Source: Gigantopelta aegis | Lineage: Eukaryota > Mollusca > Gastropoda > Neomphalida > Peltospiridae | Direction: 5' to 3' | DNA length: 64,000 bases | Assembly: GCF_016097555.1 (NCBI RefSeq) | Contig: NC_054712.1 | Location: 54,994,172-55,058,171 of the forward strand | Shown here: positions 10,001-64,000 of the stretch, piece after piece | Layout of the letters: each line of letters begins with the position of its first letter | Position numbering within the stretch: the stretch's first letter is position 1 | Program-made: the position numbers and the translations under genes | Notes under the pieces: generated by a model | What the model was told of the DNA's origin: nothing | Database searches by the model: none | The model's input: only the letters and a program-made list of their open reading frames with translations

Positions 10001-13000
10001 GGTTTTGTTGTTTGTATGTTGTTGTTTTTTAATGGCATTTAAACAAACTTCTTCTTTTTTCAAGACTCATTGTTTGAACAGAATTTTATTGCTGTTATCT
10101 TGCCTTAAAGAAAAATCAGACTCAGTATCTAATGTTCAGGCACCATTTCTTACAAAATAGATTGTCAATGTCCAAATAATAATTATATTTATTAGCTTCA
10201 GATTTGGAATTAATTAGTCACATAAACATTTGTAAAAATTTGTTTCAATAATAATAAAGATAATTAAATTTCAAAAGTTGTAAATTGGATTCTTATGGAT
10301 TCCTGTGTTGCACAAAGATGCAGGAATCTAATTGGATTTTGGTACAATTTGCTGAAAAACTAGACCTGTTTTGTGTTTATTTTGAGCCCTATGATTAATA
10401 TCAACTATTATGATGGCAGAGCTTGCTGTCCATGCAGTCGGCTAAAGAGAAAGAGGAGAAGAAGATGAATGAGGAGATTCTTCAACTTCTCAGCAAACCT
10501 ACAGCAAAGGTAAGTAATGTTTTCAACAAATCGCCAGGGCCGTATATAGTGGGGTGAGGCTGGGGGTAATAGTCTCTTCCCTCTATAAAATATGAGGAGA
10601 TTCTTCAACTTCTCAGTAAACCTACAGCAAAGGTAAGTAATGTTTTCAACACATTGTCAGGGCCGTATATAGTGGGGTGAGGCTGGGGGTAATAGTCTCT
10701 TCTCTCTATAAAATATGAGGAGATTCCTCAACTTCTCAGTAAACCTACAGCAAAGGTAAGTAATGTTTTCAACACATTGTCAGGGCCGTATATAGTGGGG
10801 TGAGGCTGGGGGTAATAGTCTCTTCTCTCTATAAAATATGAGGAGATTCTTCAACTTCTCAGTAAACCTACAGCAAAGGTAAGTAGGGTGTATACTACCA
10901 AATCAAATCCCATAGACAACAATAGTAACATATGCGGCTAAAACTCCTACCTGCAACGTATCAACCGACATAAACGCCACGGATATAAATACTACCACCC
11001 CTTACACTTAAAGTGAATCAGAAAAAAATGGGGGTCAAGCTGCTCGTTTCTGAGATAACGGGTAGCGTCTATGACTACCCTAGTTTCGCACAAAATTTGA
11101 GTACTTTTTTTTACAGGTACCCCATACATGTTTCAAGCACAAGGCTACTTGACACATTGGTACTAGATGAAATAAAATTGCACATTTATTTTACCCAGAT
11201 GAAACTATTATTTTTTACAACCAACACACTCACATTTATAACCAATCACAGGACTTGTGGTGTTCACTTCTCTATCAAAAGTTCGGTGCACCTCGAACTT
11301 TGACCCAGCCGGAAGTTATTTGGTATAGTACTACCAGTAATGTTTTCAACACATTGTCAGGGCCGTATATAGTGGAGTGAGGTTGGGGGTAATAGTCTCT
11401 TCCCTCTATTAAATAGGAGGAGATTTTTCAACTTCTCAGTAAACCTACAGCAACGGTAAGTAATGTTTCCTACATTGTCAGGGCCGTATATAGTGGAGTG
11501 AGGTTGGGGGTAATAGTCTCTTCTCTCCCCACCTCCCCCATTATTTTAGGCTAAGTACAATCCTAACTGTTTTAAAGCACATCTTCTACATTGTGCAGAA
11601 TTATATTAAAGTGTCATATCAAAATCAATGTTATGAAAATATGGATTAAAACACCATGGTAATATATAGGCAATAAATGTAGAGTAGACATTTTTAACTA
11701 TGTGTAAGGATTGCCATCAGTATAATCATGAAATTGAATTTCTGTTCTTTCTTTTGTTGTGACCACTTTATTTTTGTTGTGAAAAATATTTTTGTGAATA
11801 TATTCCTTTCAAATCTGCACCATTTTGTGAATGGAATATTTTAATGTTTTTAAAATTAATAATAAAAATGTCTATATTTTTCTCTAAAACAAATTAATTT
11901 ATGTATTTCAGGAACAGTATCTAGTGGACAAGTTTAGATCAAGGGGAGGTAACTATCATTGGTGGACACTGTAAATCATAAAATATTAGTGATCTTAAAA
12001 GTTAGTTCCATTGCGTGCTCGTATACCACAGAGGTTTCGAGCATGTCTCCCCAGACTCATATACCACAGAGGTTTCGAGCATGTCCGCCCCGGACTCATA
12101 TACCACAGAGGTTTCAAGCATGTCCGCCCCGGACTCTGATAACACAAAGGTTTCGAGCATGTCCGCCCCAGACTCATATACCACAGACGTTTCGAGCATG
12201 TCCGCCCCAGACTCATATACCACAGAGGTTTCGAGCATGTCCGCCCCAGACTCATATACCACAGAGGTTTCGAGCATGTCTCCCCAGACTCATATACCAC
12301 AGAGGTTTCGAGCATGTCTCCCCAGACTCATATACCACAGAGGTTTCGAGCATGTCCGCCCCGGACTCGTATACCACAGAGGTTTCGAGCATGTCCGCCC
12401 CGGACTCATATACCACAGAGGTTTCGAGCATGTCCGCCCCAGACTCATATACCACAGAGGTTTCGAGCATGTCCGCCCCAGACTTGTATACCACAGAGGT
12501 TTCGAGCATGTCCGCCCCAGACTCAGATACCACAGAGGTTTCGAGCATGTCCGCCCCAGACTCATATACCACAGAGGTTTCGAGCATGTCCGCCCCAGAC
12601 TCATATACCACAGAGGTTTCAAGCATGTCCGCCCCGGACTCTGATAACACAGAGGTTTCGAGCATGTCCGCCCCAGACTCATATACCACAGAGGTTTCGA
12701 GCATGTCCGCCCCAGACTCATATACCACAGAGGTTTCGAGCATGTCCGCCCCAGACTCATATACCACAGAGGTTTCGAGCATGTCTCCCCAGACTCATAT
12801 ACCACAGAGGTTTCGAGCATGTCCGCCCCAGACTCGGATACCACAGAGGTTTCGAGCATGTCCGCCCCAGACTCATATACCACAGAGGTTTCGAGCATGT
12901 CCGCCCCGGACTCAGATACCACAGAGGTTTCGAGCATGTCCACCCCAGACTCGGATACCACAGAGGTTTCGAGCATGTCTCCCCAGACTCATATACCACA

Positions 13001-16000
13001 GAGGTTTCGAGCATGTCCGCCCCGGACTCAGATACCACAGAGGTTTCGAGCATGTCCGCCCCGGACTCGGATAACACAGAGGTTTCGAGCATGTCCGCCC
13101 CAGACTCATATACCACAGAGGTTTCGAGCATGTCCGCCCCGGACTCATATACCACAGAGGTTTCGAGCATGTCCGCCCCAGACTCATATACCACAGAGGT
13201 TTCGAGCATGTCCGCCCCAGACTCATATACCACAGAGGTTTCGAGCATGTCCGCCCTGGACTCATATACCACAGAGGTTTCGAGCATGTCCGCCCCAGAC
13301 TCATATACCACAGAGGTTTCGAGCATGTCTCCCCAGACTCATATACCACAGAGGTTTCGAGCATGTCCGCCCCGGACTCATATACCACAGAGGTTTCGAG
13401 CATGTCTCCCCAGACTCATATACCACAGAGGTTTCGAGCATGTCTCCCCAGACTCATATACCACAGAGGTTTCGAGCATGTCCACCCCAGAGTTCGATCT
13501 CTGGGAGGCCAGGGACCCAACCTGGGGCAGATTAAAATTTAGTGAAGTGTAAATAAGTGACATATTAGTGACATAATTTTTTTTAGCACGGTCATCGTAT
13601 CATAAATTGAAAATAAGAAAAAGCTCAAGCTGTAGGATCAGGTTCAATAATACTGTTGATCTATTTTGACCTTATGCAGCTTACAGACATCTGAATTTTA
13701 TTACAAAATTGCAGCATGCTAACTAACTGGTTGTTTGCTATCCATTTTTGTTTAATCAGTAGTATGTAAGCATTGATGTGTGTTCAGTTAATCACCGACA
13801 ATTCAGTCACACACGTTTTTTGGGATGGTCTGTTGTACGTCTCTTTAAATTTTGCATCATGAAATATTAGCGTCTTGTATGCCCTCGAAAAATTTGCTAA
13901 AGTTTTATACTGAGTAACATTTCCTGATTTACAGTATTATAAAATAAACTTCCCTTCCCATTCTTATACTGATGTCATAAAGACATTCATTTTCTTTCAA
14001 CTGCCAATTAATACATACATTTGATACACATGCACACACACAAAAAGAATGATTGTGAGAGAGATATGGGGGAGAGATAGAGAGAGATAGAGTGAGAGCG
14101 AGAAAGAGGGGAGAGATAGTAGAGAGAGTAGAAGAGAGAGATAGTAGAGAGAGTAGAAGAGAGAGATAGTAGAGAGAGTGAGGAAGAGGGGAGAGATAGA
14201 GAGCGGGAGGGAGAGAGAGATAGTAAAGAGAGAGAGGGGAGAAGGAGAGTGAGAGAGGGGAGAGGGAGGGGTGAGAGAGCGAGTGAGTACAATATTCACT
14301 TTTGTATTGGCGTAATGATATGATTTTAACACAATTATTTTTCAGGGGCCCAGCTGAAAGAGTTTTGCCAGTACGGCACACGCGACGAATGTCTGAAGTA
14401 CGTGGAGAAAGATGGTGCTTGTAAGAAGCTACATTTCAGGAAGATCATTCGCAAACACACGGACGGTGAGATTTTATTGTTGAAACTGAAATTATGTTGT
14501 ATGGGGCAGAATGTAACTCAGTGGACTTGGGTTCCTTCTGTACCAACTAGTGCCACACTTACTGGTACGTGGATATCAAATGTCTTGGTATATATTATTC
14601 TGTGTATGGAAAAATGCATACAAAAATCCTTCTTTGCTTTATCCAAATGTTTCTCGCTCTAGCCAATGCACCACGACTGGTATATTAAAGGCCGTGGTAT
14701 GTGTTATCCTGTCTGTGGGATGGTGCATATAAAAGATCCCTTGCTGTTAATCAAAAAGAGTAGCTCATGAAGTGGTGACAGCAGGTTTCCTCTCACAATA
14801 TCTGTGTGGTCCTTAACCATATGTCTGACGCCATATGACTGTAAATAAAATGTGTTGAGTGCATCCTTAAATAAAGCATTTACTTCCTTCCTTCAACCAA
14901 ATGTTAAAATCACCATATGTTAGACACCAAATAGCAGTAGTTTAAACATTCCTTTTCTGTTTCTGTTATATCATCAGTAGAGGGGTTATATGTAACATAT
15001 TTCTGTTGTATCATCAGCAGAGGGGTTATATGTAACATATTTCTGTTGTATCATCAGCAGAGGGGTTATATGTAACATATTTCTGTTGTATCATCAGCAG
15101 AGGGGTTATATGTAACATATTTCTGTTGTATCATCAGCAGAGGGGTTATATGTAACATATTTCTGTTGTATCATCAGCAGAGGGCTTATATGTAACATAT
15201 TTCTGTTGTATCATCAGCAGAGGGCTTATATGTAACATATTTCTGTTGTATCATCAGCAGAGGGCTTATATGTAACATATTTCTGTTGTATCATCAGCAG
15301 AGGGGTTATATGTAACATATTTCTGTTGTATCATCAGCAGAGGGGTTATATGTAACATATTTCTGTTATATCATCAGCAGAGGGGTTATATGTAGCATAT
15401 TTCTGTTATATCATCAGCAGAGGGGTTATATTTCTGTTATATCATCAGCAGAGGGGTTATATGTAACATATTTCTGTTGTATCATCAGTAGAAGGGTTAT
15501 ATGTAACATATTTCTGTTATATCATCAGCAGAGGGGTTATATGTAACATATTTCTGTTATATCATCAGCAGAGGGGTTATATGTAACATATTTTGTCTCG
15601 CCTTTATAAAAAAAGAAAGAAAAAAGTTTGTTTTGTTTAACGACACCACTAGAGCACAGTGATGTATTAATCATTGGCTATGTGATGTCAGACATTTGGT
15701 AATTTCGACATATAGTCTTAGAGAGGAAACCCGCTACATGTTTCCAAGGGATCTTTTATATGCACCATCTCAAAGACAGGATAGCACATATGATGGCCTT
15801 TGATGTACCAGTCATGGCGCACTGGCTGTATCAAGAAGTAGCTCAATGGACCCACTGACAGAGATTGATTCCAAACTGACTGCACATCAAGCGAACGCTT
15901 TACCACTGGGCTACAACCTGCCAAACCGCCCCCCCCCCCCCCCCCCCCCCTTACAAAGACGAGATGTAGGTATTACTTTTCCGATGGCTGCGGCCTCAAT

Positions 16001-19000
16001 GGCTACAGCATGAATTTTGTAGCTGAGTTTTAAACTTTCATATTTGCTCCATTTGTTTTACATATTCACAATTTTGTTGTTGCTCAGTATACATGAATAG
16101 TTAAAACATTTGTTTTAGCTGCAAAGAGCTGGGGTATTAGGCATATTACTTGCTGTATACAGTTATTCTTTTTTGTTTTTCAGAGTCACTTGGAGATTGT
16201 TCGTTCCTCAATACCTGTTTCCATATGGACACTTGCAAGGTAACACTTTACCACTAACTTCTCTTTGTTACTATTCTGGGCCCCCGTTCCATGAAGCATT
16301 CTTAGCACTAAGATCACCTTATGTATGAACTTAAGTTAATCTTAACACTAAGGTTGCTTCATAGAGCGGGGCCCAGATGGTTAGAAATTGATACAGTCAC
16401 ATGTTTTCATCCTTACATACTCCAACCCTGTTGTTTTTAGGACTGCTGAACCTATGAATCATTTCTCATGTGTTTACCAGTTGCGCTAGCCAGCATTTCT
16501 TTATGTCTCCCAAAATTACCAAATGTTTGACATCCAATAGCCTATGATTAATAAATCAATGTGCTATTGTTAAACAAAGCAAACTTTAACTTTCTTTATG
16601 TCTCTAATCTGATGTGCAGATGGCTGATAAGCGAGGAGAATGTTAGTATTTCAAATTTTTTAAATTTTACCTTCAAAATTAATCTTCTTTTGTTTTGCCT
16701 CCCTCATAAAGATAAATTGAGCATGATCACATACCCTATATAGACATTAAATCAAAGTCAGACCATGAATGTAGAGAATTTCAAAATGTGGGTATATTTT
16801 TTCTTTCAGTATGTACATTATGAAATAGATTTCCCCACTGCCAAAAAGGAAATGGCTCTGTTGAAGAAGGAGAACACTCTGACCAGTGTAGGCATGGCCA
16901 GTGACTGTTGTCTGTATCCTCCACAGGTATGCACTTTGATCTTAACTTACCTCGTTATACTCATAACTTACCGTGGGCCTAATTCACTAAACTCTCGCAA
17001 CTTTGTGATCTCGCAGTGCAATGCTAAAAGACTTGCAAAGAGGATGCCTAAGAGACCTTTGTGAATTAGGCCCCTGGTTACACTCGTAATAAATGTATTT
17101 TCCTTTTAATTTTTAATTTTTTGAAACCCATGCATGATTTGATTGTAGATGGATCATTTAAATTATTCTTAAGCAATTATCGAGATTTCTTTTAAAGCCG
17201 CACTCCCTAGTTCCATCCAGTGAAAATAAATTATACTTTGGTTAATCTACAAACCTGTAACACACTTAGATCACGTTTTTATCAAATGGAGTGAAAAAGA
17301 AGGTTTTATATTGATAAATACCATGGGAATCCCCATGTCCCAATTGCTTGAAATAATTTTGAAAGTTAGTATTTTGATGTCACCGGTAGATGTCGCTCGA
17401 AGCACAACAATGCCTACGTCACGACAAATTTCACAGACTTGGGGTGCGTTTCTTTCACCTCTTCTGGACATGTTCCAACTGTTCTGTCCTGGTTGTATCC
17501 CCTCTCCAAATATCGTAAGACTTAGCAAAATTATTCGTTTTAAGGGTTTGTAACGTTTTGTATTGAGACACTTACTTGTCTGAACTTTATTGTTACTGAA
17601 AATGTTCACGAACTGTGAAGAACAAATCGGATGTTGATTGCGCGAACTGTGCACAAGAAAACAAACCGAACCAAAATGATAACGGTCACGTGGTATACCA
17701 ACGTCTGTGACATTGAAATAGAAATATCCCGTCTAAAAATAGATTAGACCTTGTCTGTTCAACGGTTTTTTCTCAAACGTGCCTCCGTTTTTAAGAAATA
17801 CGAAAAATGTATTTTGTGGTATTACAAACACCAGGATTACCAGGATTACCAAAAAACACTTCAGGTGAATGGAAATGTATATTCTAAATAATAAACAGTA
17901 AGTAAAGTGCAATTTTATTTGTGAAAAAATGGGTTTAATAGCGAAAAACAATGCCGTAATGGTTAACAACTAGCCGTAACTAGGGTGTGTCCCAGGGGTG
18001 GGGAAAAATAAAATTGTCAATCGGTCCCACGTTGATGTCATCACTACCGGGGGGAGGGGGGTAGAGGGATAAGAAGAAAGGAATGCACATAAAAATTATA
18101 AAATCATTTAAAAGGTGATATTTGCCAAGTAGTGTTCTAAAAACAAAATCATAGTGGCATTTGTATATTTTTATTTTGAATCATGAATGCGAAAACGATA
18201 AACATCAAAACATGAAAGAAAAACAAAATGTTTGATCACATCAGCGAAATTTTTTTATTATATTTATTTTACATAATGGAATAAATAATATATAAAAAAG
18301 GAATAAAAGTTATGCATTTTAACTCCCATATATGTATAAAAAGTACCAGTATTCAGTAGTCCTGAAAATTAATAAACAATAACACCGTTGGAGCGTTTGA
18401 CAACTTGAGCTGGCACACGTTTAGACAAAGCAATTAATAACGTTGTCGCCGATTGGATGACATTTGATCTCTCCTGGCTCTAAAGATAGCCGGTTTAGCT
18501 ATTCCAGCTCACTCCCACTTTTAAAAAAAAAAGAGGTGTAAACCTTTTTATTTATTTTAAAGTCCTTTATAATTATTTGATACACTACATTGAACAGTCA
18601 ACAAGAAACACATTTATTGATTATTTCAGTATATTTTATGCTATTTCAAGCAGTTTGTATTTCACAAAAGCCTCTTGCTTCGTCGGACTCTGACACTCGA
18701 CCCGACAGAGCTCCGTACACAGGCGTTAACATGTGTTGATTGTGACCAGTTGCAAACTCTGGGTCCTTTGTTTTAATTGGAGTGTAATACCTTGGTAGCT
18801 TTCTCACCAAGAATGATGAACGTCTGTTTTATCTCGTGACCAGCACAGCGGCTTTGACAAATGTCTAGCCTAGTGGCAGTAGATTGATTGTAGGTTCGAC
18901 TTATGGCAGACTTTAAAATCACAGACGTCAGAAACACCAGTCAGTTTGACCACTATTTATTTATTTATTATTATTTTAAATCATGCACAAGATGCCAATG

Positions 19001-31686: not shown

Positions 31687-33467
31687 GCACATTGGAAAGC
31701 CAAGCGAAGATTATAAGATCTAATTTCAATCAGATTGAGGATATCAGAATTTTCATCGAATGTATACCACTCTGGATTCATGTGGATTTGTATGGTTTCA
31801 TGTGGTGATTATGATTGTGGTGAGGATTTACTTCAGGTAGCTAAAACCGATACCACGGTGAATCGCAACATGTGCATTTCGTGATTTATTTCTGTTATCT
31901 ATGATAATCTTACATTAAAGCCGCACACCCTAGTTCCATCCAGCGAAAATAAATTATAATTTGGTTAATCTACAAACCTGTAACACACTTAGATCACGTT
32001 TTTATCAAATGGAGTGAAAAAGCAGGTTTTATATCGATAAATACCATGGGAATCCCCATGTCCCAATTGCTTGAAATAATTTTGAAAGTTAGTATTCTGA
32101 TGTCACCGGTAGATGTCGCTCGAAGAACAACAATGCCTACGTCACGACAAATTTCACAGACTTGGGGTGCGTGTCTTTCACCTCTCCTGGACATGTTCCA
32201 ACTGTTCTGTCCTGGTTGTATCCCCTCTCCAAATATCGTAAGACTTAGCAAAATTATTGGTTTTAAGGGTTTGTAACGTTTTGTATTGAGACACTTACTT
32301 GTCTGAACTTTATTGTTACTGAAAATGTTCACGAACTGTGAAGAAAAATATCACAAATGAACAACAACAAATCGGATGTTGATTGCGCGAACCGTGCACG
32401 AGAAAACAAACCGAACCAAAATGATAACGGTCACGTGATATACCAACGTCTGTGACATTGAAATGGAAATATCCCCTCTAAAAATAGATTAGACCTTGTC
32501 TGCTCAACGGTTTTTTCTCAGACGTGCGTGCGATTTATGAAATACGAAAAATGCATTTTTGTGGTATTACAAAAACCAGGATTACCAAAAAACACTTCAG
32601 GTGAATGGAAATGTATATTCTAAATAATAAATGGTAAGTAAAGTGCAATTTTATTTGTGAAAAAAATGGGTTTAATAGCGAAAAACAACGCCGTAATGGT
32701 TAACAACTAGCCGTAACTAGGGTGTGTTCCTTTAATCAGGATCCTTAATGGCGTTGGGGCGGGACGTATCCCAGTGGTACAGCGCTCGCTCGATGCGCGG
32801 TCGATGTAAGATCGATCCCCGTCAGTGGGCCCATTGGGCTATTTACCGTTCCAGCCAGTGCACCATGACTGGTATATCAAAGGCCGTTGTATGTACTACC
32901 CTGTCTGTGGGATGCTGCATATAAAAGATTCCTTGCTGCTAATCGAAAAAGAGTAGCCCATCAAGTGGCGACAGCGGGTTTCCTCTCTCAATATCTGTGT
33001 GGTCCTTAATCATATGCCTGACGCCATATAACCGTAAATAAAATGTGTTGAGTGCGTCGTTAAATAAAACATTTCTTCTATTATTTTTTATTGGCGTTAG
33101 TCTACGTTAACTATTGGTGAAGAGGATTAAGTTATTGTAACAGTAATATTATCATAGATACCAGAAATAAGCAATTAAATGTAGGCCTACAGGGTGCGAC
33201 TTTCCTTTTTATCAGTCTTTGTTACCGGAAGTACATGTACTAGCAAATCCTCACCACAACCGTAATCATCCACATGAAACCACATAAATCCACATATAAC
33301 CGGAGTAGCATACTTCCCACAGGGAACGCCTTTTTATACCATGGGATTTACTACAAGTTATTTATTTCTAAATTGCATACAATTGTTGGGGGTTTTTTTG
33401 GTCATTTCCAAAACACTTTTACTTTTCTTCATAACATCAAACCAAACTGAAATCATTTACAAATACC

Positions 33468-34303: not shown

Positions 34304-34611
34304 TAGGACTGGATAAGCAATGTCATGTTATAACGTCGCTTCCCAAAATTACGTCATTACACTTGTTATCACACGTGTGCTTCGTATGGTTTTTATTAAC
34401 TCAGTTGTGTTGAACCATATGGATAATAAAAGTGCAGTATTGTAGTTTCTTTCTTTCTTTCCTTTTCATATTACATATAAATTTTATTTGTGATAAATAA
34501 CACACAAAACATGTATAACTCAATAATATAGTTTGTAATGTGCTGCCTCTAGGAGTAAACTGTGGCTTTCTCAAGAATTCAAGGTAAGAATAGAATGTGA
34601 ATAGACAAATC

Positions 34612-34785
34612 TACGTCATATATCATAAAATCTGTCATGTATCGTAAAATCTACGTCATGTATAATAAAATCTACGTCATGTATCGTAAAATTTACGTCA
34701 TGTATCATAAAATCTACGTCATGTATAATAAAATCTACGTCATGTATCGTAAAATCTACGTCATGTATCATAAAATCTACGTCAT
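34612..34785 (+). repeat. 21-bp tandem repeat, about 8 copies
   Basis: Unit TCATGTATCRTAAAATCTACG. The array resumes at 35022-35052 after a 236-bp insertion. Confidence 0.92.
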
Positions 34786-35021
34786 CAGTGTTTCTGCCAG
34801 AAAAAAGTTTTTTGCGTATGTCGCTGTGAAATTGAATGCAGCCACAGTCAACAGGGGGTGTGGGGGGCCTCCCCCAGAAAGAAGCTGGGTTACATTTAGG
34901 GCTAAGGTTAAGAAAATCATACAATAATGATAAGAATCATTAATTTTGTCAAAATGTTAACTTTAAAAAATTATAATATGTGTATGGCGCCATACCCGTT
35001 TTACCCTCTGGCAGAACCCTG
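34786..35021. mobile_element. 236-bp TIR element inside the 21-bp array
   Basis: Ends CAGTGTTTCTGCCAGA and TCTGGCAGAACCCTG are inverted; GTCAT is duplicated at 34781-34785 and 35022-35026. The repeat array gives the empty site. Confidence 0.8.
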
Positions 35022-35200
35022 GTCATGTATAATAAAATCTACGTCATGTATCATAATCCATCAAACAGCAACCGGATCTTTGCCGTCAACGAATGTGGGT
35101 GGAAACCATGTATGTGATAACTGTGACTCACTTAATCTGCCAGATGTGGGAGAGGCACCCACACTGACAATATGTCCTGTTATGAGGCGACAGGCAAACA

Positions 35201-35497
35201 TGGAATTTTGGTGTGCAAAGCATTTTATTGCATTTATGGAGACTGTTTATAGTATAGATTTCAAATCCAATTGATGCCACGTTGTAACCTTTGGGCAATT
35301 TGAGTTATTAAGCTTCAAAGCGGCGCCATCTTGGATTTACATATAATGTGTAACTTCACGTTCAGTTAACGGATTTTGATGGAATTTTTTTTAAATAGCA
35401 ACTTGTTTCACTGACTAAGGTACTGGTTCATGTTTAGTAACTGTAAAATAATTCACCATCATGGATTCTGGAAGCCATATTAAATAATATTTGTTTG
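35201..35497 (+). repeat. Left terminal inverted repeat
   Basis: Starts TGGAATTTTGGTGTGCAAAG; best match to the right end over the first about 185 bases, then patchier to about 35497. The coding frame starts 100 bases inside it, so the promoter presumably lies in or next to this repeat. Confidence 0.88.
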
Positions 35498-35596
35498 ATG
35501 TCAAACGGTGAGCCATTTAACAGATGTGGCATGTTTGTTTCCTTTACAGATATAATTTCCAATAGGATGCCATGAGTACCACCCTCTGATGAAGTA

Positions 35597-38500
35597 ATGA
35601 GTACACAAGAGGCTGAACATTGTATATTTAATTGCAATCGAGAAGAAGATGTCAGTACTGTAGGTCCAGCTCGTGTAAAGTCCATAATCGCTGCAAGTCA
35701 GATACGTGGAGATGATCTACACAAACGTTTACACGAACAGTTGACAGCAGATGCACACTTAACAATACAGTGTCACAGATCATGTGTGTCTACATACACA
35801 TCAATGACACATATTGAACGATTTAAAAAGAAGAAACTTAAAGAAGCAGCAGTAGGTGAACCAGCACAGAAACGTACACGTCGTTCGGAAAAGAAAACAT
35901 TCTCTTTCATCACAGACTGCTTATTTTGTGGCGAGTGTTGTGCAGAACGTGACCCTAAGCATGCAGATAGATGGAGAAGATACTCAGTTGTGAGGACTGT
36001 GGATCGTCCCAACCAGAAAACATTTAAGGATGTCATCCTTTCTGTGTGTGACATCCGAAATGATGAGTGGTCCAACCAAGTGCGCATTAGAATATCTGCG
36101 GCAATCGCTGATCTTCATGCAGCAGATGCGCGGTACCACCATGACTGCAAAGCACTATTCATGCACTCAAAGTACATTGATCTTTTAACCACAGCAAATC
36201 CTGGTGGGGAAGTGGATGCAGCATTTAAAGGAGTCATCAACAGTATGTTGCTTGATGAACAGCACATATGGAATAGTGTAGAATTGCTAGATATGTATCA
36301 GGAGTATGGTGGTAGTAGTCTTTGTCGTAAAACTCTGATTAGTTTAGTTTGTGACCATTTTGGTGATGCATTAATTGTATTGTCATCACCTGGTGTTGCT
36401 AGTTTGCTCGTTTTCAGAAAAACATGTGCCATAAATATTGTAGCCGCAAATGATGACAGTAATTACCTTAAGAAAATTGCTACTGATATTGTGAAAGAAA
36501 CTGCAAAACCAGATAAATCTGTGTACAATGTGAGACTTAACAAAGATAACATTAACACTGGTGTCAGTTCAACTCTACTCCAACTCCTTGAAGAATTAAA
36601 AGTTCCCGATTTGCCATCAGCCTTTGTGGCTTCTGTAATAACGAGCCACATTAGCAAGTCACCAACGCAACTTCAACTTGCAATTACAAACTTACTGCAG
36701 AGTAAGAAGTTAATCACAGAACTGCATCGTTTTGGCATTGCAACTACATACGATGAGTTCCAACAGTTTACTGCCTCTGCTGCTGCTGATGCTATTAAAA
36801 CTGGGAAACAAAAATGCCTAGTGTCTGGAGGGAAGCTTGTGCAAGCTGTTGGTGACAACTTTGATGCCAATATCGCATCTCCTAATGGTATTAAACAAAC
36901 ACACAATATGGCTCTGATCATAACCCAGGAAAATGAATCAGCCAGTGAATACAAAGAAGCAAACAAATTCATAAACAGGTTGCGAAAAGTAGACTTGAAG
37001 GACATAAAAGTTCAAGATGTGGACACATGTCATTACCAAGGTCCTAAGAACCCACCAATGCCAAGTAGTGAAGCTAAACATGCAGTGACAGCTCTTAAAG
37101 TGCTGGCCCATCAAGTTGTTTCATTACAAAGGGCTCAGCATATTGACTTCATGTTTTTGAAATCAATAATCAGTGATGATAAGACACCCGAGTACAATGG
37201 TTTCAATGTGAAAGAAGTTCGAGAAGCTGGATGGACACTACAACCAGCAACTAAAGTGACATACTTACCCATGCTAGACATGTACCCTGCAGATCCTGAT
37301 ACCATTCTAACATCAATGCATGAGGTCAAACGTATCACAGAGGCAGCTGGCCAGGCATACACTATATTTACAAATGACCAACAGTTGTATAAAATCACTG
37401 TGCAAATGACATGGTTTCATGCCCATGAATTTGAGAGGTTTATTCCACGTCTCGGAGGTATGCACATGTTAATGTCATTTGTTGGTTGTGTGGGGATGTT
37501 TAATGGCAAATTCAGGATTACAAGAAGTGATGCAAGCAGCATTTGCTGGTGTTCCCCATATGCTACATGGCAAAAAGTTCCCCCAGAACATACGCACATT
37601 AAGGATGGTGGTTGAAGAAGTTCTACATACAGTACTTATGCATGAAGATGTGCAGAGTTTCGAATCGCTGATGTTGATCCTCGAGCAGAGAGCAATTCAA
37701 AGTCGTACTACTCGTCTCTGGCTTGATTCCTTGATTAAACCAGTACTGATCATGATGCTGTATGTCCGTGCAGAACGAGAAGGTGAGTGGCCACTTCACT
37801 TACTGGCTACTGATCGTATGCTTCCATACTTTGGAGCTGCTGCCCACTGGAACTACTTCCGATATGGCACGATCTATTCCATGAAGATGGCAAAGATGCC
37901 TAAAGATCTCCTTAAACATTTCATGGACAAGGAACATGTTATGCGACATAAGCCAGGCCTATGGAATGCCATTTGGAGCGACATGATGATTGAAACAACT
38001 ATGATGAGATATGGCCATGGTCCAGGTGGAGTAATAGGTATTACACTTAACCAGAAAGCCTTGCAGCGCTGGGCACTCGGTCTACACATCAGAAGTCAGC
38101 TGCAGAAAGACCTGGTGGAACTGGATGAAAACTACAAGTCCAGTCATGTAACATCTCATAAAGAAGAGAGTATATCCAGAATTAAATTGGATAACGAAGA
38201 CAGAAAGAAGATTCGTGATATGCTCAGTACATGTATCTCGCCACTTATTCCAGAAGAACATCCAGAGGAATTGGTGAACATTGCTACCGGGAAAGTGGCA
38301 ACCAATGCAGTCAATGTGGATAGAGCTCATGAGATAGGCTGTATGCAGTTACAGACGTTCAAATCAAACTTACCTGATGGATTCTATGCACCGCTAAGTA
38401 AGAAAGTGGTAACAATGGAATCAGTAAAAAAATCTATCACAGTTGGAGAAGTTGATGTGGTTGATACAGCATTGATTTACTCACGTGTGATAGCGTTGCA

Positions 38501-39999
38501 ACTCTCTCGTGATTCACTCACAATGGACGATGTGCTGAAATATGAATTGGCACCAATTCCGACTGCAATGTTTCTGGATTCAGGTGACATGCGTATTGCA
38601 AAGAACAAAGCTGTATTGAAGAATAAAACAAGCATTGAAGTATCTGCACGTTTGTATGCTGTACCAGAAGCAGTGATAATAGATGGCTCTGCGATATTAT
38701 GGATTGTCCATTGGCCTTCAAAAGGAACTGTTTCTGACGTTGTGTCGAATGTTACAGAGTATGTGTTGCGGAAGCTCAAATGCAGTCCAGTGTATTTAGT
38801 ATTTGATCGATACTATGCATATAGTATAAAGTCCACTACACGAGCTGAACGTGGCAAAGCAGCAGGAAGGGCCCATAAGCTGACCAGACAAACTCCTTTA
38901 CCATCCAAGTCTGTTGTTCTGACAAACATTCAAAACAAGACACAATTAATTGACATCATATGTACAGATATCACTGAATGTGTCAAATCAAAGGACATGT
39001 CAAACATGCTTGTTGTAACTGGCAGTTTAGATGTTCCAACACAAGTGTTGCAGAACATTGACACACAGAGAACTGACTTGAAAACCACTCAGGAAGAAGC
39101 TGATATAATCATCGTGCAACAACTTATTCATGCTGTTCATGCATTGTGGGAATAAAAGTGTACGTGTCATATGCGATGACACTGATGTGTTTGTTCTGCT
39201 AGTGTATTTCTACTGGAAATTGCATTTGTCAGCCACGATAACGATGGAAGCTACCAGTGGTGAAAGAAAGCTAATAGACATTGGACAAACTGTAGAAAAA
39301 CACATCGACATTGTACCACATATACTAGCTGCACATGCAATATCTGGGTGCGATACTGTTGCTCAATGTCATGGTATTGGAAAAGCAACAGTTCTCAAGA
39401 AGTTGAAATCAGGAGTTACTTTGAACAAAGTGGGACTGATCAATGCAGATATACAAGAGGTTGTACAAGAAGCTACTTTCCTCATTAGTAGCTGCTATGG
39501 GCACCCAAGTAACAATATGACACAGGCGAGAATAACAGCATGGTCATTCAAAACGGCAAAGGCACGTAAATCAGCACCACAGTTATCATCCCTTCCACCG
39601 ACAACCGAGGCATTTCAGGAAAATGCTAAGCGTGCTCACTTCCAGGCAATACAATGGTACGCAGCACCTCTTCCAGATCCACCATCACTGGATCCAATAC
39701 ATTTTGGTTGGACACGTGATGCAAAAGCCAAAACATTGATCCCAGTTGGAATTCCAAATAATGCATCAGCTGCTCCACCAGAAATCCTGCAACTAATAAA
39801 GTGTTCTTGTCGATCAGACCAACCATGTGCTACAAATAGATGCAGCTGTTTCGCAGCAAAACTGGCATGCACCATGCTCTGTAACTGTCGAGGGAAGTTT
39901 GATGTATGCTGCAGTCAACATACTCAGGATACAATATCTTTATCTGATAATGATGAAGAATGCAATGAGGATGAAGATGAGAATGATGCTACTCTGTGA
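35597..39999 (+). pseudogene. Transposon protein: Cys/His modules, DDE-like core, FEN-like nuclease, CXC
   Basis: One gene in three consecutive frames, 35597-37615, 37479-39155 and 39130-39999. Alignable sense is lost at about 37500 and 39148, each by a net +1 change next to T residues. About 1,465 codons overall; no introns. In order: two Cys/His modules (CIFNC...CHRSC; CLFCGECC...YHHDC); GDNFDANI (36852), NDQQLY (37372) and ETTMMRYG (about 37993), possible D-D-E positions of an RNase H fold with a helical insert (inference); VFDRYYAYSIKSTTR (38800); EEADIII, then CDDTDVFVLLV and SGCDTVAQCHGIGKATVLK, a pattern like PIN/FEN1 nucleases with a helix-hairpin-helix; a CXC-type cysteine cluster CSCRSDQPC...CNCRGKFDVCC (39807-39910); an acidic C-terminus. 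It probably is the element's transposase, now broken unless the shifts are assembly errors or programmed. Confidence 0.75.
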
Positions 40000-40319
40000 A
40001 ACTGAGATCGAGAATTTGTATGTGCGAACTTGAATGTGCCTGCTTGCCAGAGGTAGTTGGTTAGGAAAACATCCTATAGTAATTGTTGAATATTATCGGA
40101 TGACTGAATGACTTTGAATGACTTAGGTTGCCGATTGGAAAAAGCCAGTGCATACTCCATACATATTTTACATTGATAATTGTGTATTTGTATTGCCTAC
40201 ATAAAGTTTGAATGGCTCCATAGTATATACATGGTAATACATTAAATAATGAACCAGCTTCTTGTGGTTTTTTAAAATGCGTAATCAGTACCTGTAATGG
40301 AGGACTAAGTTAGATATAA

Positions 40320-40614
40320 AAATACATCCAATATGGATATGACCAAAATCTAGGATACATAATTACTTTACAGTCATGAAATGTTAACCAGTCTCTTATT
40401 CAGTGAAAAACAAGGTATTTAAAAAAAAAGTTTGTTAAATTCCAATAACCGAGCGTTAAGTTACAAATTCTACGTAAATCCAAGATGGCCGTCATTTTGA
40501 GGCTCAATAACTCAAATTGCCCAAACGTTACAGAGTGGCATCAACTGGATTTGCAATCAGCACTATAAACAGACTTAAAAAATGCAATAAAATGCTTTGC
40601 ACACCAAAATTCCA
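40320..40614 (-). repeat. Right terminal inverted repeat
   Basis: Inverted match to 35201-35497, ending CTTTGCACACCAAAATTCCA. The coding frame ends about 320 bases before it. Confidence 0.88.
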
Positions 40615-40982
40615 GGTTATTTGAAATTCTTCCAGACTTGCGTTTTGTATCAAGCAATCTCTTTTTATACAAATACATTAAAACCAATTTACTCGAAATT
40701 ATCTTCCCAGGCGCGTGCGAAAACAAATTTCATATCCCGATATTTAATGTAAATTCTTTCCAAAAAAATGTGGTCAGAAAGCAGCTTGGCTAGCCAGCAG
40801 AAAACACCTCAGAATAGACCTAGAAGGGGGCAATTTTTCAAAATTTTCGGGCTTCGCGCCTGCGGAGCTCGCTGTGTCGGGCTTCGCCAGACACCTCGTC
40901 CCACCCCCCTGCAAAATTTCCTGCGCACGCCTCTACTTCTTGTTAGCCATGTTTTCAAATCAAATCCGTTTTTTTTTTCTCC

Positions 40983-41217
<235 letters not shown>

Positions 41218-41712
41218 GCGCACACACTAATACACACAAGACACACGCCGCCATTTCCTCATTTAGTACTTACTTTTTTATTTAGTTCTTCGAAGTCCAC
41301 ATTGTTCAAAGTCTAAACGGGAGCTGGTATGACACTGTTCAGTGCACTCACCCCTGTATGACGCATTGTATTATAATTATGAATTCTAGTTTCACTCCCG
41401 TTCACAATCTCCGAACATTATCTCCGAACATTATCTCCGAATATTAATAGACTGATTATGTCAGAATACATACAAGTATTCTGACATAATCAGTCTATTA
41501 ATGTTCGGATATACACCTAGAATCCCATACTCTATATATGTTTTGTACTTATTGTTGGCACATCGGCCTCGTGTCGTAAGATCAACATTTCAACTTATTT
41601 TCGTGCTTATATCCAATTAAGGTTCAAGCACACCGGGCTGTCTGTCCAGAATAGTGGGTTAGTTGTTAATTGTTTGTGGTTAGTGAGAGAGTAGAAGGTG
41701 TAGTGGTCTTAC

Positions 41713-53637: not shown

Positions 53638-56559
53638 GTGTGGCGTAACATAGCTAATAGTATATATATACTTACCACGAAATAGTCGTAGTGAGGTACA
53701 TACTGTCCGCCGATACCATAGTTGAGTACCTGAAATTGGACGACTTGAATATAACACCATTACAGACATAAAACAAAACGGGGAGTGGGGTGGGTATTGT
53801 GAAACAACCGAGACAGAGTAATACAGGACTATTTTTAGCTAGACAAAAAATTATACTTTTTAGTTAAGCTTAAAGGACACTTACTATTATATCTGAGGAG
53901 AAGCTGTCTTCTGACATTCGTTAATTACTGCCTTGTTAGTATTCTTACAGTATAAAGTGCACTTTTGTCAAAAGTTTCGGCCTTACACCGTTCCGACCCC
54001 ACTCTACCCTGGTTGGTATGGCCGAGATATAGAGAAATGTATAATTACTGTACCTGTAAGGGTTCCGCAAGGGTTCTGTTGTCTCTGAAGTCGGTTAGCA
54101 GTCCCGTGATCTCGGAAACCCTTCGACTGAGACGTTCCACAATAGACGTGTGGTTGTCCCACAGCCAGGCTCTGTTCGCATATATATAAATTAGAAAATA
54201 TATACTCAGTAAAATTAATTAAGGGTCAGTAAACTATCTGGTCTGGGGATTTTGTTTTGCTAGTGAGAGTTAGCAAGTTTTGATCAGATTATTTTTAAAT
54301 GATATTTGAGTAATCTTTGAATTCTTTGTAAAACCAAAAACAAATGTATTTTGTACCATATAATATCAGGAAGAAAATGTTGAACATATCTACTGGCCCT
54401 AATTAATTTGGTTGAGTATACATTAATATGATATACAGTCAATAGTCCGTCCTATCTTCCTACAAAAATGTGTTTTGTAAATAATTTCAGTTTGTTTTGA
54501 CGTATGAAGAAAAGTAAAACTGTTTAGGAAATACACCCCACCCCCAAAAAAACCCCCAAAACAAACAACAACAAAAAACCCCAGGACTATTATTGTGTCC
54601 AATTTAGAAAAGAATCGGCTCACAAATAAATAATTTGTAGTAAATTCCATAACATGAAAAAAGGAGTTCCCTGTAAGATGGACTATGACATCGTAATCTC
54701 GACATTCCAGGATATCTTGAAATTGTTGTCGGTGAAATGTTCTGTGGCATAACTTCACCAACAACTATTTTGTTTATCTCGAACCACAGATGTATCGATG
54801 GTTAGGTTCCTTCAACATTAAGATAATGACGCGTGACAAAATATACTGATGAAAATATATTATTTAATGTTAGAAATAATTAAATTTACCGATATATGAG
54901 TAGACTTATTTTTCGTTTTTGTGGAATCTTTTTCTTTCTTTTTTTTTGTTTTAGGGTATTTGAATAATGTTAAAAATATATATAACTATTAAAGGGACAC
55001 ACCCTAGTTACGGCGTTGTTTTTCGCTATTAAACCCATTTTTTCACAAATAAAATTGCACTTTACTTACCGTTTATTATTTAGAATATACATTACCATTC
55101 ACCTGAAGTGTTTTTTGGTAATCCTGGTAATCCTGGTGTTTGTAATACCACAAATGCATTTTTCTTATTTCTGAAAAACTCACGCGCGTCTGAGAAAAAA
55201 CCGTTGAGCAGACAAGGTCTAATCTATTTTTAGAGGGGATATTTCCATTTCAATGTCACAGACGTTGGTATACCACGTGACCTTTATTATTTTGGTTCGG
55301 CTTGTTTTCTCGTGCACGGTTCGCGCAATCAACATCCGATTTGTTGTTGTTCATTTGTGAGATTTTTCTTCACAGTTCGTGAACATTTTCAGTAACAATA
55401 AAGTTCAGACAAGTAAGTATCTCAATACAAAACGTTACAAACCCTTAAAACCAATAATTTTGCTAAGTCCTACGATATCTGGAGAGGGGATACAACCAGG
55501 ACAGAACAGTTGGAACATGTCCAGGAGAGGTGAAAAGAACGCACCCCATGTCTGTGAAATTTGTCGTGATGTAGGCATTGTTGTGCTTCGAGCGACATCT
55601 ACCGGTGACATCAGAATACAAACTTTCAAAATTATTTCAAGCAATTGGGACATGGGGATTCCCATGGTATTTATCGATATAAAACCTGCTTTTTCACTCC
55701 ATTTGATAAAAACGTGATCTAAGTGTGTTACGAGTTTTTAGATTAACCAAATTATAATTTATTTTCGCTGGATGGAACTAGGGTGTGCGGCTTTAAATAA
55801 GTACAAAAGAAACTTTTTATTAGTAAACATCACAGAGAAATAATCATAACGTGAATTATGTACATTAATAATACGTTTAACATAAAATTAAGTTGTCTGT
55901 CCACAGTTTATTGCCACTGTTAAGCTGTTTCGAAGTACCAGGGTCTTTTTAACGACTAATATTACATATGAAATACATTTTCGTTTGTTACAATATCAGT
56001 ATTTGTAAATCTATGTGTTTGTTTAACGTCCTAATTTTGGCAGTAGCTCAAATCGTTTTTTCTTTCTTTTTTATGTATATTGTTTCTTATATATAAGATT
56101 ATTGGTGGGGGCTACAGGTTGGAGGAAAATACAGTTTGGGCTACCATAAGCATTAGGATGACCTGAAAAGCATTGAATACAAAGTCAATGATGTTGTAAC
56201 AAATGAAAATGTATGTAATATTAGTCTTTAAACAAGGAAATGTTTAATTTTAGTATTTTGATAAGCTCTATTTGTCGGAAGTTTAGGACACTTTCTTTGA
56301 CAAATAAAAACGAAACTCACACTTTACTGGTCCTGGCTTCGTGTTGTTTGTGAGATAATGGAGAATTTCCTGTTGCTGATCGTTCCAACTAGAAAGACAA
56401 AAATATTATATTATCTATCTGTCTGTCTGCCTGTCTGTCTGTCTATCTCGTGATATGTGTATCAGTACGTATGTCTGTCTGTCTGCTATCTATCTATGTA
56501 TGTATGTATGTATGTACATATATACATATATACATATATACATACATGTATATACATAT

Positions 56560-63722: not shown

Positions 63723-63952
63723 GGCAGTCTTGCTACAGACGGCGTAATGATGTAGTGATCTGAGGAGCGGCAGTCTTGCTACAGACGGCGTAATGATGTA
63801 GTGATCTGAGGAGCGGCAGTCTTGCTACAGACGGCGTAATGATGTAGTGATCTGAGGAGCGGCAGTCTTGCTACAGACGGCGTAATGATGTAGTGATCTG
63901 AGGAGCGGCAGTCTTGCTACAGACGGCGTAATGATGTAGTGATCTGAGGAGT
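63723..63952 (+). repeat. 46-bp tandem repeat, five copies
   Basis: Unit GGCAGTCTTGCTACAGACGG + CGTAATGATGTAGTGATCTG + AGGAGC, exactly 46 bp apart and almost identical. The array ends before the window edge with a diverged unit (GGCAGTCTTCTTGTAGACGA). Confidence 0.95.
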
Positions 63953-64000
63953 GGCAGTCTTCTTGTAGACGAAGAACCTGACAGCGATTTGTTGAAACAA

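Follow-up and report, generated by a model that had tools for sequence, protein, structure and literature searches.

What kind of mobile element occupies positions 35201-40614 of a 64,000-nucleotide stretch of the Gigantopelta aegis genome (NCBI RefSeq assembly GCF_016097555.1, contig NC_054712.1, positions 54,994,172 to 55,058,171 of the forward strand; hereafter the window), and does it belong to a described superfamily? A preliminary description, made from the letters of the window, had read this locus as a large terminal inverted repeat (TIR) transposon encoding an unusual multidomain protein and had assigned it to no superfamily. We conclude, with a probability of roughly 75%, that it is a broken copy from a recently active TIR (cut-and-paste) DNA transposon family, which most probably belongs to the AcademX lineage of Academ.

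Copies, ends and empty sites of the family

The 1.15-Gb genome was searched with the stretch 35201-40614, a check that the preliminary description had itself proposed. Of 62 matches, 49 resolve into 13 near-complete copies (the window copy L001, L002-L006 and L009-L015) and one fragment (L016), 14 loci in all, and they reveal exact ends and 3-bp target duplications; the remaining 13 matches are short and weak and represent related elements. Twelve of the 13 near-complete copies were aligned, L009 being left out for the inserts it carries, and their pairwise identity is 98.1-99.9%, apart from L010, whose rows of 94.1-95.4% are depressed by flank included in the row.

Intact copies run from TAGTC to GACTA, carry long inverted repeats and total about 5.4 kb; the six copies with both ends and with neither a 292-bp deletion (see below) nor large inserts measure 5,400-5,488 bp. 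L009 spans 9,031 bp, which means that it contains about 3.6 kb of further insertions and was itself a target. Both ends are present in 10 of the 14 loci, and all ten of these copies are bordered by a perfect 3-bp target duplication (ATA, TTA, TAC, AGT, ATT, TGT, TGT, TAA, ATG and CTA). The four loci that lack one or both ends (L001, L006, L010 and L016) look like truncations.

Empty sites were sought by joining the flanks of a locus with one copy of the three duplicated bases kept, which gave a query of 217 bases for L011. With 40 of 48 candidates scored, eleven places match this query at exactly 217 bases and ten further places come close to that length, differing by small gaps or slightly shortened ends, while the other listed matches are partial. 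The same query type for L012 is matched at exactly 217 bases by 38 of the 40 listed places (40 of 124 candidates scored). These places are unbroken empty sites inside other repeats and, since they match the joined flanks without interruption, insertion of the element was precise. Target duplications and empty sites together establish the mobility of the family and, with the inverted arms, bear out the initial reading of a large TIR transposon. The 32 outermost bases of the left end, used as a pattern with up to three mismatches allowed, occur at nine places in the genome, all of them ends of known copies, and no small non-autonomous family sharing this left end was seen.

The window copy itself is decayed. 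Its inverted arms are real (outer pair 35197-35319 and 40496-40618, 88% complementary; second pair 35325-35471 and 40343-40489, 73% complementary), and the genome search also pairs the two ends of the element with one another over some 270 nt (78-81% match). Positions 35201 and 40614, however, which had been taken for the ends, delimit no more than the symmetric inner part. In other copies conservation extends beyond them, by 36 bp to the left and by 25 bp to the right, up to TAGTC and GACTA. The outer left 36 bp are absent from the window copy, and a scan of the window for the 21 outermost bases of the left end, allowing three mismatches, gave no match. At the right end it reads CCAGACT followed by TG where other copies have CCAGACTA, the last base having been changed or lost. 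A 20-bp gap at 40041, which is not seen in the other 11 aligned copies, and two frameshifts in the gene complete the picture.

One gene and its core-deleted copies

In the window the gene is split into three overlapping open reading frames (ORFs) in three different frames. L009 is open for 1,087 amino acids through the first of these breaks and L002 for 511 amino acids through the second, so that the element carries a single intronless gene, about 1,465 codons long, as first proposed, which has been frameshifted twice in the window copy. Introns were considered as the source of the frame changes and rejected, because other copies are in frame at the same points. The whole frame is open in none of the 14 loci examined, the longest open stretch being the 1,087 amino acids of L009.

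Four copies lack a 292-bp segment of the core (Table 1). In three of these, which lie at different sites, both ends are present and each has a duplication of its own. This is most simply read as the spread of a defective deletion copy by protein produced elsewhere. Multiplication of a single insertion by segmental duplication is unsupported, as the flanks differ, and an insertion of the 292 bp into the window copy is less likely, as the segment codes for core motifs that are seen in relatives.

Diverged relatives and selection

A protein search of the same genome gave at least 98 matches, the family itself included, among them many diverged relatives with 35-55% identity; with 84 of 1,874 candidates scored, these counts are lower bounds. 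Long inverted arms were seen in 11 of 20 relative loci and not in nine, many loci having been cut too short to contain both ends. The ends of ten relative loci were examined (L021 was set aside, its arm being cut by the end of the locus). TAGTC-type ends together with a matching 3-bp duplication were found in three of them (L019, whose right end is GATTA, L045 and L049), while a candidate end of L044 starting with TAACC and a second candidate of L049 were set aside. Pattern scans of viral contigs with two single proteins, and a tblastn search of phages with one protein, found no relative.

Codons were compared on natural open stretches. The ratio of nonsynonymous to synonymous substitution rates (dN/dS) is 0.09-0.26 in 20 between-family pairs with computable dS, which is mostly 2-5 and thus rough, and 0.48-1.66 in nine close pairs; L002 and L009 differ by no nonsynonymous change over 118 codons. 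Low values between families together with higher values in close pairs indicate that the protein is constrained while active and drifts after insertion.

The candidate transposase half

The N-terminal half of the protein carries two Cys/His modules and a D...D...H...E set that, judged from the conserved acids and their position, may represent a DDE core (Table 1). Nothing was listed by Pfam for the first two window ORFs. DUF6589 (PF20231) was matched below threshold by 3 of 12 N-terminal members (best E 3.4e-5, 23.2 bits against a cut-off of 27), over about 50-60 core residues. This family is common in the genome, with 42 matches, 36 of them over the cut-off, often in long open frames (e.g., C1:20461085-20462629), and its loci may represent another transposase lineage related to this element. 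Our literature search found no paper naming DUF6589. Pfam and NCBIfam matches such as OMPdecase, IR1-M and HyoA were weak and were treated as noise, as were sequence matches to the PDB.

The nuclease-like half

In the C-terminal half, motifs follow one another in the order DG-A-LW, FDRY, EEAD, DDTD, SGCD and GIGK, which is the order of FEN/XPG nucleases, and exons of the host genome that match XPG_I carry similar motifs (EAEAQ, TDDSD and GCDY...GFGK). The element thus resembles FEN1, XPG, EXO1 and GEN1 in the succession DG, FD, EEAD, DDTD and GCD..G.GK, but differs from them in that its nuclease-like domain is fused to the candidate transposase and is too diverged for the Pfam XPG model.

Each acid of these motifs is kept in at least 14 of 18-20 relative loci: the Asp of DG in 17 of 18, that of FDRY in 20 of 20 and that of SGCD in 18 of 19, the residues of EEAD in 16, 17 and 16 of 19, and those of DDTD in 14 of 18, 17 of 18 and 16 of 19, counts that are not all independent, because L019/L051 and L022/L043 are the same places. 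The Gly of GIG is kept in only 14 of 19. A Cys-rich cluster follows, on which the Tesmin/TSO1 CXC profile gave a below-cut-off match to the third window ORF (E 0.51). The multidomain make-up given in the preliminary description (Cys/His modules, candidate DDE core, FEN/PIN-like segment and CXC cluster) was therefore recovered.

Placement in a superfamily

The original description of Academ, by Kapitonov and Jurka in 2010, reportedly combines an XPG nuclease with a Cys8 zinc finger; in our literature search no text was found that names Academ together with XPG. According to the portion of the source available to us, AcademX makes duplications of 3 or 4 bp and AcademH of 9 or 10 bp, a difference tied to a nuclease versus a helicase (PMC10045372), and the available part of a survey of bivalves gives Academ a mean length of 5,565 bp (PMC10294476). 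As far as these excerpts go, the element resembles AcademX in its 3-bp duplication, its putative encoded nuclease at the level of motifs and its length of about 5.4 kb. AcademH, which would share its superfamily if the Academ label is right, has by contrast 9-10 bp duplications and a helicase in the same excerpt (PMC10045372), where our element has 3 bp and nuclease motifs, and AcademH was rejected: no helicase is among the listed profile matches of the element protein. The view that the element had no obvious superfamily and was under-described is thus unsupported or weakened, given two AcademX traits and a length close to the Academ mean in the excerpted bivalve data; Academ had in fact been named among the families to be compared, and the earlier view mostly reflects a reading made without tools. 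The novelty is most probably that of a new family in a known superfamily.

The results collected in the remainder of this paragraph, and the profile and structure comparisons of the nuclease-like half given further below, weigh against this placement. Seven of the ten relatives examined for ends have no convincing matching duplication, though several carry a TAGTC-like end at one side or both. Most between-family pairs are saturated, and dS could be computed for a minority of them. For no part of the protein does a scored Pfam or NCBIfam match exceed its cut-off; apart from DUF6589, which the window protein does not match, the best E in the profile scan of the member tables is 0.018. The fit to AcademX is one of anatomy and not of alignment to Academ sequences or profiles.

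These missing curated matches leave room for a separate, unnamed superfamily that came to 3-bp duplications and a FEN-like nuclease by convergence, and the CXC cluster, the two Cys/His modules and the TAGTC termini may or may not be shared by described Academ elements. We nevertheless hold such a superfamily to be unlikely. Missing profile matches say little, since the libraries may contain no Academ model, and a 3-bp duplication, a nuclease and this length form together the combination given for AcademX and Academ in the available portions of PMC10045372 and PMC10294476. Slightly less likely again is a superfamily outside those described, whose elements would combine an RNase H-like transposase with a FEN/XPG flap nuclease and a CXC DNA-binding module in one protein and so bring their own flap processing to an integration with a 3-bp stagger.

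It appears quite improbable that the FEN/XPG likeness arose by chance and that the C-terminal half, in an Academ-like element, is a conserved domain with no relation to these nucleases, although several searches would be compatible with this. The XPG family was unmatched in the sequence search: a genome-wide search for XPG_I gave 12 matches, none of them at copies of the element, and no FEN-type PDB sequence was matched. A single-sequence structure model of the nuclease part of the window copy was useless (mean predicted local distance difference test score, pLDDT, 34). In profile-profile comparisons with hhalign, with column shuffles as the null, six phage FEN sequences gave a weak E of 0.4, and nine FEN sequences scored 20.7, a value equalled or exceeded by 6 of 200 shuffles (reversed references, 14.0), or 21.7 with another transposon alignment (2 of 150 shuffles as high). 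The match became clear only once four FEN-family exons of the host genome were added: the resulting 13 sequences scored 31.6, with none of 150 shuffles as high (maximum 19.1) and with the transposase half, as a control, at 16.05, while the hhalign probability was 18% even then. The four exons had been selected by their match to XPG_I (PF00867) and not by likeness to the transposon; their FEN-family names are our own, given on the basis of motifs. What speaks against chance is that the expected motifs stand in the expected order with their acids kept in most relative loci, and that hhalign unaided reached the same register, over 187 columns spanning the motifs and above 150 of 150 shuffles.

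Other named superfamilies remain. Kolobok duplicates TTAA, hAT and Zisupton duplicate 8 bp and Dada 6-7 bp; Harbinger and Zator have 3-bp duplications, those of Harbinger being TWA, and Pfam includes a KDZ model. Although 3-bp duplications are shared with Harbinger and Zator, membership of Kolobok, hAT, Dada, Zisupton, KDZ, Harbinger or Zator is very improbable, as the duplications are 3 bp and varied, which disfavours Kolobok, hAT, Zisupton and Dada, as only two of the ten are TTA or TAA and eight are not TWA, which disfavours Harbinger, and as Pfam matches with E up to 1 included no transposase model for the window ORFs or for the members of two sets, A1 and A2, and no KDZ family for the three window ORFs or the A2 members. 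Within the portion of PMC9587614 available to us, Kolobok (KolobokE, D and P) shares with the element a transposase with an accessory nuclease and a conserved His between D2 and E, but its nucleases are of lambda-exonuclease, DnaQ or His-Me type and its motif is C/DxxH, in contrast to GGMH here.

Features of the window copy and neighbouring repeats

Table 1. Coordinates of the element and of its features in the window.
Feature	Position	Strand	Remarks
Remaining element (L001)	35201..40638	+	Outer left 36 bp and last right base lost, compared with 12 other near-complete copies
Left terminal inverted repeat, inner part	35201..35471	+	
ORF part 1	35597..37615	+	Two Cys/His modules, D1 and D2 of candidate transposase core; frame lost after ~37476-37501
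Cys/His module 1 (CIFNC...CHRSC)	35621..35785	+	Read directly; also in relative L052
Cys/His module 2 (CLFCGECC...RYHHDC)	35918..36148	+	Read directly; CLFCG and H.DRW also in relative L052
Candidate first catalytic Asp (NFDA)	36863..36865	+	D in 4/4 relative loci covering the position
Segment absent from L010, L011, L012 and L015	37284..37575	.	292 bp; deletion takes out the D2 and RLGGMH motifs
Candidate second catalytic Asp (NDQQLY)	37376..37378	+	D in 7/7 relative loci covering the position
Conserved His (RLGGMH)	37463..37465	+	H in 8/8 relative loci covering the position
ORF part 2	37479..39155	+	Candidate core Glu, linker, first half of FEN/XPG-like domain
Candidate catalytic Glu (WSDMMIE)	37992..37994	+	E in 9/11 relative loci covering the position, K in 2
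FEN/XPG-like nuclease domain, first to last motif	38682..39384	+	DG 38682, FDRY 38799, EEAD 39093, DDTD 39175, SGCD 39343, GIGK 39373
ORF part 3	39130..39999	+	Second half of nuclease domain, CXC cluster, stop
C-terminal Cys-rich (CXC) cluster	39802..39912	+	Read directly
Right terminal inverted repeat, inner part	40343..40614	-	
Right terminal stretch GGTTATTTGAAATTCTTCCAGACT	40615..40638	+	Beyond the earlier coordinates; other copies end CCAGACTA

Several other repeats lie in the window. To the left of the element, a 21-bp tandem array that adjoins it occupies 34607-34785, with the unit found again at ~35022-35068, and a repeat that is very abundant in the genome includes the stretch from ~34822 to 35021. 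With 40 of 3,694 candidates scored, none of the scored matches extends over 35057-35200, to the left of the missing end. A 38-nt near-perfect hairpin (41432-41513; arms 95% complementary, 6-nt loop) adjoins repeats at 13-bp spacing. Farther away are a 39-bp minisatellite (12018-13491; about 38 copies, 94% match), which has long open frames on both strands because its unit is a multiple of three, and a 46-bp tandem repeat (63723-63961; 5.2 copies, 99% match). A 622-nt inverted pair (31915-32536 and 55175-55796; 97% complementary) is related to 17191-17959 and constitutes a dispersed repeat.

Proposed mechanism and implications

If the element works as its anatomy suggests, the single protein would bind the terminal repeats through the Cys/His modules, the CXC module or both. 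A DDE-type RNase H-like core, in which the candidate acids would act, would then cut at the TAGTC termini and join the 3' ends of the element to the two target strands 3 bp apart, with gap filling by the host giving rise to the 3-bp duplication. During excision or gap repair, the fused FEN/XPG-like domain would most likely either cut the non-transferred strand or trim a 5' flap. We infer this chemistry from family knowledge; its products, namely the ends, duplications and empty sites, were observed in the genome.

Near-identical copies that lack the D2 motif and yet have spread provide natural evidence for mobilisation in trans. If the assignment to Academ is correct, the superfamily would gain a young family, present in many copies, for which exact ends, target duplications and empty sites are documented, together with a large set of diverged relatives within one genome. 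It would also become testable why an AcademX-type lineage carries a flap-type nuclease, and whether this nuclease sets the short 3-bp stagger, as compared with the 9-10 bp given for helicase-bearing AcademH in the source as available to us.

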